Shown here piece by piece: positions 39,534 to 47,189 of a stretch of DNA of 64,000 nucleotides (position 1 is the stretch's first letter; each line of letters opens with the position of its first letter). The stretch comes from Rhodospirillales bacterium. Its GTDB lineage: Bacteria > Pseudomonadota > Alphaproteobacteria > Rhodospirillales > Casp-alpha2. The stretch spans positions 1 to 64,000 of the forward strand of contig JABJGO010000082.1 of NCBI GenBank assembly GCA_018662225.1. The letters are read 5' to 3'. The notes beneath the pieces were generated by a model. It had not been told where the DNA came from, searched no databases, and saw only the letters and a list, made by a program, of their open reading frames with translations. The translations under genes and the position numbers were made by a program.

Positions 39534-39924
39534 TAAGAACAAAGAACGCGCAAGAGGCTGGATGATTATCGCGGCCCTCAACGGATTCATGGTTGTTGGT
39601 ATGGGCGCCTATGGGGCGCATGGTTTAAGTGGACAGGCAGACTATCTGGTCGACAGCTTTAACACCGGTGTTCAGTACCAGATGTGGCATGGCCTGGCCT
39701 TGATGGGTGTGGCCTGGATGGTTCAGCAAACCGGGAACCTTTACATACGGCTATCTGGTGCCGCCTTCACATTGGGCAATATTACGTTTTCCGGCACACT
39801 TTATGTGTTTGGTATGACCGGCGATGTACCCTTTCAAGGGGCTGCACCGGCAGGTGGCATGATTTTGATGGCGGGCTGGGCCTTATTGGCCTTCGGGTCA
39901 TGGCGGGAACGAGGTCGTGACTGA
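39526..39924 (+). CDS. DUF423 membrane protein
   Basis: A 132-aa inner-membrane protein of about four spans, of the DUF423/YgdD family: AYGAHGLSG near residue 28, YQMWHGLALMGVAW near 52, and GNITFSGTLYVFG near 84 are family landmarks. Function not known. Middle gene of a tightly overlapping trio with the amidotransferase and the K+ channel (8-nt overlaps on each side). Confidence 0.87.
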   Translation: MGNKNKERARGWMIIAALNGFMVVGMGAYGAHGLSGQADYLVDSFNTGVQYQMWHGLALMGVAWMVQQTGNLYIRLSGAAFTLGNITFSGTLYVFGMTGDVPFQGAAPAGGMILMAGWALLAFGSWRERGRD

Positions 39925-40885
39925 GCACCAATCAATCAACAAGAGTTTACGCCAGCACGTGCACGAGACGCTGGAAGCCGGGCGGGTTGAAACGCCGATT
40001 GGCCGTATTGTTGATATCGCACTGATCGTCCTGATCTCGCTTAACGTTATAGCCGTAATCATGGAATCCGTGCCGTCATTTCATCAGGACTATGAACAAT
40101 CATTCCTGATATTCGAGATATGTTCCGTCAGTATCTTTGCGGTGGAATATGTGCTTCGGGTGTGGTCTGTACCTGAACAAACCGACCTGGACGCAAATCG
40201 CGGATTTATCAGTCGGGTTCGCTATATGCTGACCCCCATGGCGCTGCTGGATTTGATCGTCATCCTGCCATTCTTCCTGGGCTTCTTTTTTCAGATGGAC
40301 TTGCGGGTGTTGCGAGTCCTGCGGCTGTTTCGTGTTTTCCGCCTGTCCCGTTACTCTTCATCCATGAGCGTTCTGGTCCATGTTCTGAAAGAAGAATCGG
40401 CCAATATTGGTGCCGCCATGTTTGTGCTGATGATGATGATTATCCTCGCCGCCAATATCGTTTATCTGGCCGAGCACGACGCACAACCCGAAGCCTTTGG
40501 CACCATCCCGGATGCCTTATGGTGGGCGGTCATTACCATGACGACGATTGGTTACGGTGATGTTATTCCGGTAACGGTGATCGGTCGCGTGTGCGGGGCC
40601 GGTATCGGTATTCTCAGTGTTGGCATGGTCGCCTTGCCCGCCGGTATTCTGGCATCGGGTTTCAATGACGCCCTGCACAGACGCCGGCAACAGTTCAAGG
40701 AAATGGTCGATGACGCCTTCATGGACGGTGTTCTGGACGAAAATGAACTTTCCGGCATTCGGGAAGAACGTGACGTTCTGGGCCTCAACGAAAAACAGGC
40801 CAACGCCATTATTCAGGAAGCCAGTAATCAAACCAGAGTTCGGTTAGGTTCCTGCCCTCACTGCGGCAAACAAATCCGCGGCTAG
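39917..40885 (+). CDS. Voltage-gated-type potassium channel
   Basis: A 322-aa six-span ion channel subunit. S4 carries regularly spaced arginines (LRVLRVLRLFRVFRLSR, about residues 133-149), and the pore has TTIGYGDVIP, a K+-selectivity filter. The cytoplasmic C-terminus is acidic-helical and ends with CPHCGKQ, a single CXXC pair that could bind metal across subunits of the tetramer. It starts with GTG and overlaps the DUF423 stop by 8 nt. The TAG stop begins a TAGAGCAAAAC element. Confidence 0.9.
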   Translation: MTEHQSINKSLRQHVHETLEAGRVETPIGRIVDIALIVLISLNVIAVIMESVPSFHQDYEQSFLIFEICSVSIFAVEYVLRVWSVPEQTDLDANRGFISRVRYMLTPMALLDLIVILPFFLGFFFQMDLRVLRVLRLFRVFRLSRYSSSMSVLVHVLKEESANIGAAMFVLMMMIILAANIVYLAEHDAQPEAFGTIPDALWWAVITMTTIGYGDVIPVTVIGRVCGAGIGILSVGMVALPAGILASGFNDALHRRRQQFKEMVDDAFMDGVLDENELSGIREERDVLGLNEKQANAIIQEASNQTRVRLGSCPHCGKQIRG

Positions 40886-42662: not shown

Positions 42663-43400
42663 TCAATTGCCGAGGCGGGTGCGGGCCTGTTTTGCCATTT
42701 CAACCAGCGCACGACGGCACTGGTCCGCGTTTGCCACGGGTTCTTCGAAATCCAAACGGGTAAACCGTGATCCGCACACCATATCAAAGCCTTCCGGATC
42801 CAAGGCAACCATCCGCCAACCAACCCCGCGCCGACCGGCAAGGCCTTGGGCGCAGATATCCAGTGCCGCACCATGGTCTGTGTTCATGTGTTCGATCACG
42901 CTGGCTTCAGCCTCAATCAGGTCTGATATTGCGCCGGTATCGCGTAACGTGAAATGTTTGGCTCCAAGCCATCGGGCCTTGGCAAATCCACCCACCCAAT
43001 GAACCCGGTCCACCGCCATTTTATAAAAGGCGAAATCGCCGAACCCTGCATACAGGCTGGCATCCGGATGATGGGCCAGGAACCGCGTGGACAATCGCTT
43101 GTCTCTGGTCTTCCTGATCTTACCACTTAAGGTAACGCGTGGGCCGGTTTGTGGGTTTCGTCTTCGGGACGCCGCCTCGAACAAAAGCGATGCACGGTTG
43201 TCGATCGTCAAATTTTGGGTGTGATCAGCCAGCTCGGAAAACAGCATGATGGGGCTGGCATCCATGTCACAGGCCACGGTCACGAACGATGCGTAGGGGT
43301 GACAATCGTGTTTATCGAGTACCGTAGCCAGCGTCGCTGACCTGGCACGCCGCACAATCCCGCGTCCCGCCAACGCTACAGATTCTCGGTCATCAGTCAT
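42663..43400 (-). CDS. HugZ-like PNPOx/DUF2470 flavin protein
   Basis: A 245-aa protein with an N-terminal split-barrel FMN-binding fold (ATLATVLDKHDCHPYAS, then MLFSELADHTQNL) and a C-terminal DUF2470 domain (VIEHMNTDHGAALDICAQ). This is the build of HugZ-type haem oxygenases and of glutamyl-tRNA-reductase-binding proteins; VHWVGGFAKARW fits the family. Haem degradation is possible but not shown. Last gene of the DUF1538/P-II/CBS operon, 5 bp after the CBS gene. Confidence 0.8.
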   Translation of the reverse strand: MTDDRESVALAGRGIVRRARSATLATVLDKHDCHPYASFVTVACDMDASPIMLFSELADHTQNLTIDNRASLLFEAASRRRNPQTGPRVTLSGKIRKTRDKRLSTRFLAHHPDASLYAGFGDFAFYKMAVDRVHWVGGFAKARWLGAKHFTLRDTGAISDLIEAEASVIEHMNTDHGAALDICAQGLAGRRGVGWRMVALDPEGFDMVCGSRFTRLDFEEPVANADQCRRALVEMAKQARTRLGN

Positions 43401-43405
43401 TGGCG

Positions 43406-43813
43406 TCAGTCATTGGTCTCGATCTGGCACAGGGCCATATCGCGCAAGGTGGCAAGGCCAACGGGTGTGCGCGAGGCATCAATAACCAATGCGCGGGTCA
43501 GACGGAACCGGACCAGCAGGCGCACGGCATAACGAATATCCATATCCGCCGCAAGGCTCATCACCGGCTTGGACATGATTTCGTACACATTGGTTCGGCT
43601 GGGCGAACGATCTGTCGCAACCACTTCCTTGGCGATGTCATAGACTTCAAGCAAGCCGTATTCATCATGCTCACCACGGCGCTCAACCACCAGCGAACTT
43701 ACATGATGATCGCGCATTTCCTTTACGGCGTCAGCGACGGTCGCCATGCCGCTAATGGTGTGAACACCACGCGACATAACCTCGCCCACGCTCGTATATT
43801 TCTTTTCATTCAT
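43406..43813 (-). CDS. CBS-pair protein
   Basis: A 135-aa stand-alone protein made of two CBS motifs (VGEVMSRGVHTISGMATVAD and VYEIMSKPVMSLAADMDIRY). CBS pairs bind adenine nucleotides and often gate transporters. Its ATG overlaps the stop of the P-II-like gene. Together with that gene it offers two candidate sensors for the DUF1538 membrane proteins encoded upstream in the same operon. No enzymatic domain present. Confidence 0.9.
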   Translation of the reverse strand: MNEKKYTSVGEVMSRGVHTISGMATVADAVKEMRDHHVSSLVVERRGEHDEYGLLEVYDIAKEVVATDRSPSRTNVYEIMSKPVMSLAADMDIRYAVRLLVRFRLTRALVIDASRTPVGLATLRDMALCQIETND

Positions 43814-44160
43814 AACGATTCCTCGATTTCCTGAATAATGGTTTCCTGTTGGGTCTTCATCCCGACTGCGTCTTCAATTTCCAGTTGGAAGGCCATGCCA
43901 GAGCCTGGCTCTTCATCAAATTTACCAGCGTCAGCAATCGTCTCGAGAATGCTTCGAGCGAGCGGGGCTGCCACGATGAACAGCAACATATCCCGTTGCG
44001 CCGTCAACTCAAGGCCCAGAAAAGATTTCTCGGGCTTTAAGCCTTCGCCTCTGACACTGGTAATGACGGTGGCGCCTGTGGCACCGGCTTCTCGCGCGGC
44101 AGCCATGACAGCATCCGTTTTTTCATCAGCCACCAATGCGGTAATGAGCTTGAGATTCAT
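43810..44160 (-). CDS. P-II-like signalling protein
   Basis: A 116-aa protein of the P-II superfamily. The ferredoxin-like core is seen in LKLITALVADEKTDAVMAAA, GATGATVITSVRGEG and the C-terminal GSGMAFQLEIEDAVGM. The T-loop region (KPEKSFLGLELTAQRDM) lacks the tyrosine that GlnB/GlnK use for uridylylation and the usual GlnK T-loop sequence, so it is unlikely to be a classical nitrogen sensor. Overlaps by 4 nt with the DUF1538 gene before it and the CBS gene after it. P-II proteins beside a transporter usually gate it. Confidence 0.85.
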   Translation of the reverse strand: MNLKLITALVADEKTDAVMAAAREAGATGATVITSVRGEGLKPEKSFLGLELTAQRDMLLFIVAAPLARSILETIADAGKFDEEPGSGMAFQLEIEDAVGMKTQQETIIQEIEESL

Positions 44161-44984
44161 TGGATATTCCTCTTGTTCTCAGGTGTTTCTAGTGATGTTT
44201 CATCTTGTTTTTGTTTTTGCCGCTGGTGATACCAGTCGGCTAATTTTGCATACCCAAATACGGCCATAATGGGAAATACGCTGGCGAAAGCGATCAGGCC
44301 AAACCCATCCAGCAACGGGCTACGACCGGGTATGGTCGAGGCCAGCCCAAGGCCCAGGGCCGCCACCACCGGCACGGTCACGGTTGATGTGGTGACCCCG
44401 CCTGAATCATAGGCCAGCGGGATAATCATCTTGGATGCCCGCAGGGTCTGGAAGATGACCACAACGTAGCCAGCCATGATGTAATAAGGGAGCGGCGTCC
44501 CGGTCACAATACGGTATGAGCCAAGCGACACACCTACCGCCACGCCAAACGCCACGGCCAGACGCAGGCCTAGTGCATTCAATGCGCCACCCGAAATCTC
44601 TTCAGCTTTCAACGCCACCGCAATAAGGGACGGCTCGGCAATGGTGGTGGAGAACCCAATAGCAAAGGCAAATACATAGACCCATATATAATCGCGCCAT
44701 TGGACCACTGTCGCCGATGCAGGTTGAATAAATTCAGGCGCTGTCAGTTGCGCTGCCATGGTCTCGCCCATGGGGAACAACGCTTCCTCCAAACCCACCA
44801 AAAACAGGGTCAGCCCGACAATCACATAGCCAAAACCCACAGCCATACGTTGGGGGTTGGGGGGCATTTTGCGCACGACAAACAATTGAAAGCCCAACAG
44901 AATGGCCGCAATAGGCAACACATCTCGAATCGTTCCCACGGCGGAGGTGCCTATATGAACAGTCAGATCAATGATCATATCCAT
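44157..44984 (-). CDS. DUF1538 membrane protein, second copy
   Basis: A 275-aa integral membrane protein with about seven spans. It shares with its upstream neighbour the DUF1538 hallmarks [31 protein letters not shown] and [16 protein letters not shown]. In other bacteria two DUF1538 halves may occur in one chain; here they are separate genes joined by TGATG. The hydrophilic C-terminal tail is rich in Lys, Gln and Glu. Transport activity is likely from topology and from the paired inverted-repeat-like design, but no substrate is known. Confidence 0.82.
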   Translation of the reverse strand: MDMIIDLTVHIGTSAVGTIRDVLPIAAILLGFQLFVVRKMPPNPQRMAVGFGYVIVGLTLFLVGLEEALFPMGETMAAQLTAPEFIQPASATVVQWRDYIWVYVFAFAIGFSTTIAEPSLIAVALKAEEISGGALNALGLRLAVAFGVAVGVSLGSYRIVTGTPLPYYIMAGYVVVIFQTLRASKMIIPLAYDSGGVTTSTVTVPVVAALGLGLASTIPGRSPLLDGFGLIAFASVFPIMAVFGYAKLADWYHQRQKQKQDETSLETPENKRNIQ

Positions 44985-45718
44985 CAGTAGACCATCCCAT
45001 ACACCATCACGAAGATCATCGGCGTTAGACTGGCAAAGGCGATCAGGCCAAACCCGTCAATCATGGGGTTACGGCCACGGATAACACCAGCAAGCCCAAC
45101 GCCCAGTGCTGTCACCAATGGAACCGTAATCGTCGACGTGGTTACCCCGCCGGAATCATAGGCAATACCAATAATCTCAGGAGGCGCGAACAACGTGATC
45201 ACCACGACCAGAATATAGCCCCCGATAATCAGGTACTGAATAGGCCAACCTTTCAGGATACGAAACACACCCAACACCAGAGCAAACCCCACGGACAAAG
45301 CCACCGTCAAGCGCAGCCCCGTGGCATAGCTGTCACGGGACTGGTCGCTGTCCACGATGACGCCACCGATGCTGGCGACACTGGCGGCTTCGGCGGCAAC
45401 CGCAATCAGGGCAGGCTCCGCGATAGTGGTGCCAAAGCCCAGACAAAAAGCAAAACCCAACAGGGCCGGTAGGCTGCCTTTACGGGCAAGCGCGTCGGCC
45501 ATGGCCTCACCAATGGGGAACAGGCCCATCTCCAGCCCCTGAATAAACAGGGCCAGGCCCAGAACTACAAAGATCAAACCAACGATGGTATTTTCCAGGT
45601 TGGGGAATGGGGCCTGTAGAACAATCAGCTGAAAAAAGGCAATAACCCCTACGATGGGCGATAGATCACGCGCCGCACCAACAACCAAACCCATAAAGTT
45701 CTTAAGCGACTTGTTCAT
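44984..45718 (-). CDS. DUF1538 membrane protein, first copy
   Basis: A 244-aa paralogue of the next gene, with [34 protein letters not shown] and [15 protein letters not shown] in the same order. First gene of the operon DUF1538-DUF1538-P-II-CBS-HugZ, all with overlaps or gaps under 6 bp, so stoichiometric production is likely. The two copies probably form a heterodimeric permease. GGGG lies about 5 nt before the ATG. Confidence 0.82.
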
Positions 45719-45799: not shown

Positions 45800-46498
45800 T
45801 CAGGCGTCTTCGAACTTGTTGAAGAAATACCCTACCAACCCACCTAAGACAGCCCAGAATAATCCCACTGTGACCAACGACGAAACCGCAAACTGTGCCA
45901 CCACTTCAGTGGGCAGATCATGGGTGAATTCGCCTGGGCGCGGTGCACCCACCACATGGGGAATGACCATGATGACCACACCGGCAATCCGCATCACCGC
46001 GTTCGTGCCAAACACCAGCAAGCCCAGGCTTATGGCTGTGGCAATAGCTGTGGCAATCCACCACAGCTGACGATGATCAATATCACCACCCATCATGCCC
46101 GGCAATTCTGGCGGTATTCCCAAGGCGGGTGCCACGTACAGCGAGGCGAACCCGGCCAGCCCCCATAACACCCCCTGCCGGGTATCCACATTCTGTCCAC
46201 GCAAGGCGAACAACGCGGCCAACATGAAGCTGTAGCCAACGCTCATCAACACCGAGGTCAGCAGCGTAAACCCGTGCCGCTCGAAACCTTCTTCCGGCAT
46301 CCAGGCCATACTGTGATCATGGCTGGATTCCTCACCATCGGTCGCTTCTTCGCCGTGTTCGTGCCCGGATTCAGCGCCGCCTTCGTACTGTTCAGCAAAA
46401 CTGATAAGGGGAACGGTGGTGACCATTTGCAGGCCGGTTACAAATATACCAGCGAGCGCGCCAGCGGCCAACGCGGTCATTACAATACGCCTGAACAT
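45800..46498 (-). CDS. cbtA: CbtA cobalt transporter subunit
   Basis: Predicted cobalt permease of about five membrane spans (232 aa). The first periplasmic loop is His/Glu-rich (ESGHEHGEE, SSHDHSMAW), a likely metal collector, and the family motif GGDIDHRQLWWIATA follows later. The ATG at 46498 has AGGAG 7 nt upstream. Follows cbtB by 85 bp under a cobalamin riboswitch. The transport role is predicted for the family by regulon, not measured. Confidence 0.88.
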   Translation of the reverse strand: MFRRIVMTALAAGALAGIFVTGLQMVTTVPLISFAEQYEGGAESGHEHGEEATDGEESSHDHSMAWMPEEGFERHGFTLLTSVLMSVGYSFMLAALFALRGQNVDTRQGVLWGLAGFASLYVAPALGIPPELPGMMGGDIDHRQLWWIATAIATAISLGLLVFGTNAVMRIAGVVIMVIPHVVGAPRPGEFTHDLPTEVVAQFAVSSLVTVGLFWAVLGGLVGYFFNKFEDA

Positions 46499-46583
46499 CA
46501 TAGGGCTCCTGAATATACACAAGCATAACACGTCGCACCGGCACGAGCCGGGCGAGCATCAAACCAGGACTTGAACGAAAACC

Positions 46584-46769
46584 CTAGTGACAGGGCAGCG
46601 CAAAAGCGTGACGGCTGTCGTGTGCAGCATTGTGAATTTCAGTGGGCTGAGCGAAACCTACGCCGTAGACCATGAATACACCAAATACCAAGGCGAAGGC
46701 GGCGGGCAGAACCCGGCTGGATACGTCATCGGCAATAGCATTACGAATATCAGTTACTTTGGTTGTCAT
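46584..46769 (-). CDS. cbtB: CbtB cobalt transporter small subunit
   Basis: A 61-aa single-span protein that partners CbtA. After the span (LPAAFALVFGVFMVYGVGFA) comes the conserved His-rich end EIHNAAHDSRHAFALPCH, a clear CbtB signature. The frame is open upstream to 46904, but that part is the riboswitch and leader; the ATG at 46769 fits family length. Confidence 0.9.
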   Translation of the reverse strand: MTTKVTDIRNAIADDVSSRVLPAAFALVFGVFMVYGVGFAQPTEIHNAAHDSRHAFALPCH

Positions 46770-46833
46770 GTGATTGGTTCCATACCTTAAATAATCAACT
46801 CGAATCCAAATCACCGCCTTAGGATACAATCCT

Positions 46834-46858
46834 GCTCTGAGACACCCCGTCTCTGAGC
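46834..46858 (-). promoter_or_regulatory. Hairpin in cbtB leader after riboswitch
   Basis: Arms 46834-46843 and 46849-46858 pair over 10 bp with one T-T mismatch, loop ACCCC. It lies between the B12 box and the cbtB start. No T-tract follows, which favours control of translation or a Rho-dependent switch over intrinsic termination. Confidence 0.5.
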
Positions 46859-46871
46859 TGACGATGACACT

Positions 46872-47055
46872 TAATGGCAGGTCTCCTGGCTCACGGATCA
46901 TCACATCATCCAGCCTTCCCGGTCACCCTCAGCTGGGCGACTAGTGGCCTTTTCGAACAATGCTCACCGCTAACAGTTGCGGGGGCAGCCACGGTTTAGA
47001 TCCCCTATTGGGTCGATCTTTCCGCATTCCCTATTAATCCCCAGGCTTTATCGCC
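46872..47055 (-). ncRNA. Cobalamin riboswitch
   Basis: Read on the minus strand the region shows the cobalamin riboswitch landmarks in order: AATAGGGAA near the 5' end, GGCTGCCCCCGCAACTGT, GCCACTAG, and the B12 box GAGCCAGGAGACCTGCC at 46892-46876. It precedes cbtB and cbtA, a standard target. Rising adenosylcobalamin should shut off cobalt uptake. Ends are approximate. Confidence 0.93.
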
Positions 47056-47189
47056 ATAAACGGGGAACCATCACCGCGACTATAATCCGTCAAAAAGTGC
47101 GCGGTCAATGCACAGAAATCATCATTCGCTATATTTTTGCCACAAAGTGCTGCCCTACTGCTAAAAGTACATACTTATTCGGAGGACAC

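Follow-up and report, generated by a model that had tools for sequence, protein, structure and literature searches.

DUF1538 (UmpAB-type) membrane proteins encoded with P-II-like and CBS-pair partners: a probable nucleotide-gated cation/proton antiporter module

Four closely packed genes on the minus strand of contig JABJGO010000082.1 (Rhodospirillales bacterium, assembly GCA_018662225.1) probably encode a monovalent cation/proton antiporter gated by nucleotides, in which an antiparallel UmpAB pair would be served by a P-II-like and a CBS-pair sensor. The window is the whole stretch of DNA that was analyzed, positions 1 to 64,000 of this contig. Within it, the umpA-like gene (umpA; DUF1538 subunit A, 244 residues; 44984..45718) overlaps the umpB-like gene (umpB; DUF1538 subunit B, 275 residues with a basic C-terminal tail; 44157..44984) by 1 nucleotide (nt; 44984). 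The P-II-like regulator gene (pii; 116 residues; 43810..44160) overlaps umpB by 4 nt (44157-44160), and the gene for a stand-alone CBS-pair protein (cbs; 135 residues; 43406..43813) overlaps pii by another 4 nt (43810-43813).

An earlier sequence-only reading had joined these genes and the next one, a HugZ-like gene (42663..43400, minus strand), into a single five-gene operon held together by a four-fold overlap. All five open reading frames (ORFs) lie on the minus strand where that reading placed them. There are three overlaps (1, 4, and 4 nt) rather than four, cbs being separated from the HugZ-like gene by a gap of 5 nt (43401-43405), and the conserved module comprises four genes. For these four, the idea of a transporter served by two nucleotide sensors is well supported by their conservation, their translational overlap, and the exchange of CBS for a second P-II homologue described below; it does not extend to the HugZ-like gene.

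Both membrane proteins belong to DUF1538 (PF07556; 229.9 bits for UmpA and 214.2 bits for UmpB against a gathering cut-off of 22.6, with E-values of 2.7e-68 and 1.7e-63), and their best NCBIfam models are UmpA (NF041627, 354.2 bits) and UmpB (NF041628, 342.5 bits). The pair had been described as being of unknown function, which is out of date: DUF1538 pairs include the characterized antiporter UmpAB (PMC5484666). UmpAB of Halomonas zhaodongensis is a two-component Na+(Li+,K+)/H+ antiporter for which antiport is reported and with which the antiporter-deficient Escherichia coli strain KNabc regains salt, lithium, and alkaline-pH tolerance, and the two proteins co-immunoprecipitate as a hetero-dimer. 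Four ORFs are listed for the rescuing 4.2-kb clone, ORF1 (truncated) through ORF4, the last being umpB; none of them is a P-II or CBS gene, and a construct of only umpA and umpB is reported to have been functional in E. coli as well. A term search of the main text found P-II, CBS domain, topology, and antiparallel all unmentioned. The window pair shares with UmpAB its make-up of paired, adjacent, homologous DUF1538 membrane proteins, for which UmpA and UmpB are the best NCBIfam matches; it differs in scoring under the equivalog cut-offs, and the P-II/CBS pairing and antiparallel topology are added here. In addition, a 2026 paper counts DUF1538 as one of the Pfam families associated with growth pH.

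The association with the sensor genes is conserved far beyond chance. Of 589 relatives confirmed in a scan of named genomes, the best 80 were kept, so this sample leans to close relatives; three of the 80 loci are cut at contig ends, leaving 77 that could be evaluated. The neighborhood survey that the earlier reading had suggested found a P-II-fold gene directly after umpB in 76 of these 77 loci, and cbs after pii in 74 of 76 (all except L064 and L113), with an overlap of exactly 4 nt between pii and cbs in 66 of the 74. The start of pii lies between -16 and +84 nt from the umpB stop (median +8). The module occurs in Vibrio, Colwellia, methane oxidizers, sulfur oxidizers, and Alphaproteobacteria; Bacillota have a variant form of it.

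Broader sampling gave the same picture. In a class-level survey, 16 of 190 genomes, our own included, contained DUF1538; 16 loci were read (L033-L048, among them a second locus of our own genome). One of these is truncated by a contig end; a P-II-like gene directly follows the DUF1538 gene or genes in all 15 that could be evaluated. DUF1538 was present in 116 of 299 genomes in a wider survey, and a P-II-like gene adjoins it in 20/20 loci picked for diversity, several of them from the same genera. No close relatives of the P-II-like protein were found on plasmids, and plasmid loci were therefore obtained with a DUF1538 query: five of the nine matches were read, three of them in Clostridia, and each has an annotated P-II gene next to DUF1538. 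All 66 genomes with DUF1538 between G190 and G324, together with our own, hold a P-II-like match at E <= 3.1e-12, and genomes with only weaker matches reach 8.5e-9 at best; a further 28 genomes, which the search does not list by name, gave no match. A strong P-II-like match without DUF1538 was seen in G206, G293, G305, and G320. DUF1538 was found in 0/14 control genomes, and none of the 77 pattern matches in viral_contigs codes for a relative.

The third gene encodes a P-II protein that departs from the canonical type. Pfam places it in PF00543 above the cut-off (2.1e-12), and its AlphaFold model (predicted local distance difference test, pLDDT, 84) has a P-II fold. The best Foldseek matches of this model are GlnK/GlnB (E 1.3e-06, GlnK being the best), and comparison with 1hwu by VIA gives Z 13.1 and a root-mean-square deviation (rmsd) of 1.8 over 83 residues; CutA chains follow closely (Z 12.1). 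The two canonical P-II signatures, in the form that we take them to have, were sought in 45 aligned sequences: the uridylylation-site signature of the T-loop is found in 0/45 and the C-terminal signature G-[DY]-G-[KR]-[IV]-[FW] in 0/45, and GlnB of our own genome, the positive control, carries both. The sequence-only reading was correct that the T-loop lacks the uridylylation tyrosine: there is no Tyr in this stretch in 44 of the 45 sequences, the window protein included, and one has a Tyr. The loop has a pattern of its own, RGEGL...KTF-GL, in which R37, G38, E39, G40, T46, F47, G49, and D57 are kept in 41 to 45 of the 45; T46 is a Ser in the window protein.

Related P-II-like genes also occur solo near argB (L188, L189, L190, and L194; family names read by eye), with a gene for an SH3-type membrane protein between the two in L189, L190, and L194. 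The product of argB is acetylglutamate kinase, which is a P-II target in other bacteria. The clostridial P-II proteins are 222-224 residues long (L159:5461-6135, L161:4683-5351, and L162:4650-5318); in both that were tested, it is the C-terminal half that passes the Pfam P-II cut-off, and by eye the N-terminal half resembles a second P-II domain, giving a tandem look.

The fourth protein has two CBS stretches (PF00571, 2.7e-17) in one chain and matches CBS pairs in the PDB, with CBS-CP12 (5nmu, 2.6e-28) as the best sequence match; it is a probable adenine-nucleotide sensor. The second CBS motif fits G-h-x-[T/S]-x-x-D, which we assume to be the ribose-binding pattern, in 10/10 sequences.

The nature of this second regulator changes with the form of DUF1538. 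It is a CBS pair in the split and close fused forms. In distant fused loci, a divergent second homologue of P-II takes the place of CBS behind the P-II-like gene. Pfam barely detects this homologue (each of the six proteins tried scored under the threshold or gave no P-II match), and for this reason profile-profile comparison was used, followed by a profile search. The second P-II profile matches the first at E 1.5e-19 and shows no match to the CBS profile, the negative control. The profile search found the homologue in 15/15 distant fused loci (L033, L046-L048, and L169-L179), five of which lay outside the profile, and in 0/9 split or close-fused loci (L164-L168 and L180-L183). Across L164-L183, the two DUF1538 forms match two P-II types without exception: one type, unaccompanied by a second P-II, is found in the nine split or close-fused loci, and a different one, together with the second homologue, in the 11 distant fused loci.

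One such system lies on another contig of our own genome (L033:7324-11311), with a fused DUF1538x2 gene and two successive P-II-like genes. These are followed by a ZIP-like protein (a weak Pfam match, below the cut-off) with a cyclic-nucleotide-binding domain inside.

The two membrane subunits are predicted to insert in opposite directions. Lysine and arginine residues were counted per loop, with loop borders set by hand from one UmpA model; on this count, UmpA is positive on its N-terminal side in 42/42 cases (the window and 41 named loci), and UmpB has the opposite bias in 34/35 (the window and 34 named loci), the remaining one being neutral. In fused DUF1538 proteins, the first half has a UmpA-like bias in 28/28 and the second half a UmpB-like bias in 28/28. 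UmpA is accordingly predicted to be N-in/C-out with seven transmembrane (TM) segments and UmpB to be N-out/C-in, and the opposite bias of UmpA and UmpB, and of the fused halves, leads us to predict an antiparallel 7+7 TM unit. Our reading of the UmpA model and the published prediction (PMC5484666) both give seven segments.

The UmpA model itself (pLDDT 89; predicted template modeling score, pTM, 0.81) has two broken helices, one around A100-E101-P102 and the other after D188. E101 and D188 (UmpA numbering) are each kept in 132 of 133 DUF1538 halves, and we regard this near-invariant Glu and Asp at the helix breaks of each half as candidate cation/proton sites. A search of the PDB with the UmpA profile found no related chain by sequence; Foldseek returned no significant fold match for the UmpA model (best E 0.58); and the best VIA match, a phycobiliprotein (Z 6.0, rmsd 4.4, 122 residues), was read as noise. 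Such a lack of PDB matches for UmpA does not prove a new fold. No internal repeat was detected within one DUF1538 half (E 0.14, against 0.16 for a reversed control).

We propose that UmpA and UmpB, as homologous 7-TM halves inserted in opposite directions, would form one antiparallel heterodimer that is the transport unit, with the Glu and Asp of each half as its putative ion sites. The P-II-like protein is expected to be a trimer binding adenine nucleotides between its subunits, and its conserved T-loop may dock on the cytoplasmic face, probably on the basic loop and tail of UmpB. The CBS-pair protein, translationally coupled to it, would add a second adenine-nucleotide input. Since the Halomonas pair is active without sensor genes, the sensors more likely restrain or tune the transporter than build it, and are probably regulators. 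The arrangement suggests that the energy state of the cell opens or closes the antiporter: restrained by its sensors, it would spend proton motive force on Na+/K+ extrusion and pH control only if that state allows. We infer the direct binding, the ligands, inhibition as the direction of control, and the roles of the ion sites.

It is important to set against this proposal several observations that weigh in the other direction. None of the papers found reports a physical association of UmpAB with the sensors. The window pair misses the NCBIfam equivalog cut-offs (354.2 against 490 bits for UmpA, 342.5 against 500 for UmpB). Regarding topology, the hand-set loop borders come from a single model, and without the C-terminal tail the UmpB bias is weaker (27 of 35 for, 3 contrary, and 5 neutral). 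The first CBS motif of the window protein deviates from G-h-x-[T/S]-x-x-D. The Thiomargarita metagenome-assembled genome locus L094:3332-4789 has umpAB with another gene downstream in place of pii; this could be a version that naturally lacks the sensors, or the assembly may be at fault. Both CBS and a second P-II are missing from the split-type, P-II-containing loci L044, L064, and L113 and from the plasmid loci L160 and L163, and no clean division into the two P-II types is seen among the five plasmid loci. Finally, in some lineages, members of the same P-II-like subfamily are encoded away from DUF1538.

Among other explanations, the DUF1538 complex could resemble SbtA-SbtB and have a different solute as its in vivo substrate, such as bicarbonate or some other anion moved together with Na+; antiport in E. 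coli would then be a side activity. A P-II-like partner is known for a Na+-dependent bicarbonate transporter, and the distant fused DUF1538 proteins are 34-36 % identical to UmpA (four halves aligned), with no published assay found for them. We consider this unlikely, however, given that the published pair relieves sensitivity to Na+, Li+, and alkaline pH and that its H+ antiport is reported to depend on Na+, Li+, or K+ (PMC5484666), and given the link of the family to growth pH noted above. Near-universal linkage and 4-nt overlaps would also fit P-II-like and CBS proteins that are obligate structural subunits rather than switchable regulators. The activity of the Halomonas umpA and umpB construct alone (PMC5484666) argues against this, as do the one named locus without pii and the three split-type loci without cbs, and we hold it to be improbable.

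A poor prospect, too, is that the sensors act on another target, such as a metabolic enzyme or transcription, and that the genes merely co-travel. The solo P-II-like genes near argB in some lineages speak for it; against it stand the constancy of the partners across distant groups, the close spacing of pii behind umpB, and the genomes with two DUF1538 systems (G000, L166, and L201), in which each system has its own P-II-like gene. Farthest from the evidence is a redox-linked machine of all five genes, with the flavin/haem-type protein included. The gap of only 5 nt after cbs in the window, and the occurrence of the same neighbor in L050 and L059, would suit it. Nevertheless, a HugZ-like gene adjoins cbs only in those two of the 72 loci able to tell (in 2 of 74, the contig ends too soon), and a HugZ-like match was found in 0/16 class-survey loci, some of them cut by contig ends. 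The survey therefore largely refutes this very improbable explanation, and with it the place that the earlier reading gave to the protein. We rejected the HugZ-like gene as a member and regard it as a passenger, a lineage-specific neighbor.

Regulation of a UmpAB antiporter by dedicated sensors, the explanation that we prefer, has precedents. A review describes both P-II-gated transporters (AmtB-GlnK and SbtA-SbtB) and CBS-gated ones, and its passages on them name no cation/H+ antiporter under P-II control. A second review states for cyanobacterial SbtB that an interaction with other transporters needed for salt acclimation has been observed and calls for further work, and it includes Na+/H+ antiporters among the putative c-di-AMP receptors; the remark on SbtB and salt acclimation is, in what could be consulted, the nearest published hint found. 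As in AmtB-GlnK and SbtA-SbtB, a P-II-fold protein is encoded beside its putative transporter target. Unlike in those systems, no PDB relative of UmpA was found by sequence or fold, the P-II protein lacks the canonical signatures, a second sensor is encoded, and the complex is putative. MgtE and CNNM/CorB similarly combine a CBS pair with ion transport, whereas the CBS pair of the window is a separate protein and not a fused domain.

With EmrE-like small multidrug resistance (SMR) pairs and DUF606, the family shares oppositely biased homologous halves, encoded in some cases by two genes and in others by one fused gene; it differs in having seven TM segments per half and a so far unmatched fold.

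The antiporter itself is already known; what is new, as far as we searched, is that DUF1538 is paired with P-II and CBS genes and is predicted to have an antiparallel topology. We found no report of either, nor of a P-II-controlled cation/H+ antiporter, in the open-license PMC literature, and other papers could hold one. For DUF1538 as a whole, we lean slightly toward a widespread, structurally undescribed family of antiparallel 7+7 TM antiporters that are almost always accompanied by adenine-nucleotide sensors of their own (a P-II-like protein with either CBS or a second P-II-like protein).

If this is true, the module would be, as far as searches show, the first cation/H+ antiporter to possess a P-II-type gate of its own, and a new target class for the P-II superfamily, with energy charge setting the proton motive force spent on salt and pH homeostasis. 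To our knowledge, the coupling of Na+/K+ and pH homeostasis to energy state at the level of an antiporter is little understood. The four genes are a self-contained module for which a heterologous assay already exists (E. coli KNabc). For structural biologists, DUF1538 would be a family of antiparallel transporters encoded by either two genes or one, for which we found no solved relative.

The genes surrounding the module can be dealt with briefly. The fifth protein has CREG_beta-barrel and DUF2470 matches in Pfam, lies outside the conserved module, and misses the HugZ haem oxygenase model TIGR04109 (24.7 bits against a cut-off of 240). None of the five proteins gave a PADLOC match at E 0.01, and anti-phage defense was rejected. 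Upstream of umpA, and likewise outside the module, are a cbtA-like gene for a proposed cobalt transporter (45800..46531, minus strand; TIGR02458, 252 bits) and a cbtB-like ORF (46584..46904, minus strand; PF09489, 1.5e-17, residues 62-106), the true start of which is probably downstream of the ORF start. A cobalamin riboswitch (46859..47087, minus strand; RF00174, 108.2 bits) precedes cbtBA. We rejected CbtBA as a part of the module, as it has this riboswitch of its own and a cbtA/cbtB match was seen only in L050 of the best 80 loci. L050 has the same riboswitch-cbtBA-umpAB order as the window, with a larger gap before umpA. A gene for a voltage-gated-type ion channel (Ion_trans in Pfam; 39917-40885, plus strand) lies a few kilobases from the antiporter operon.

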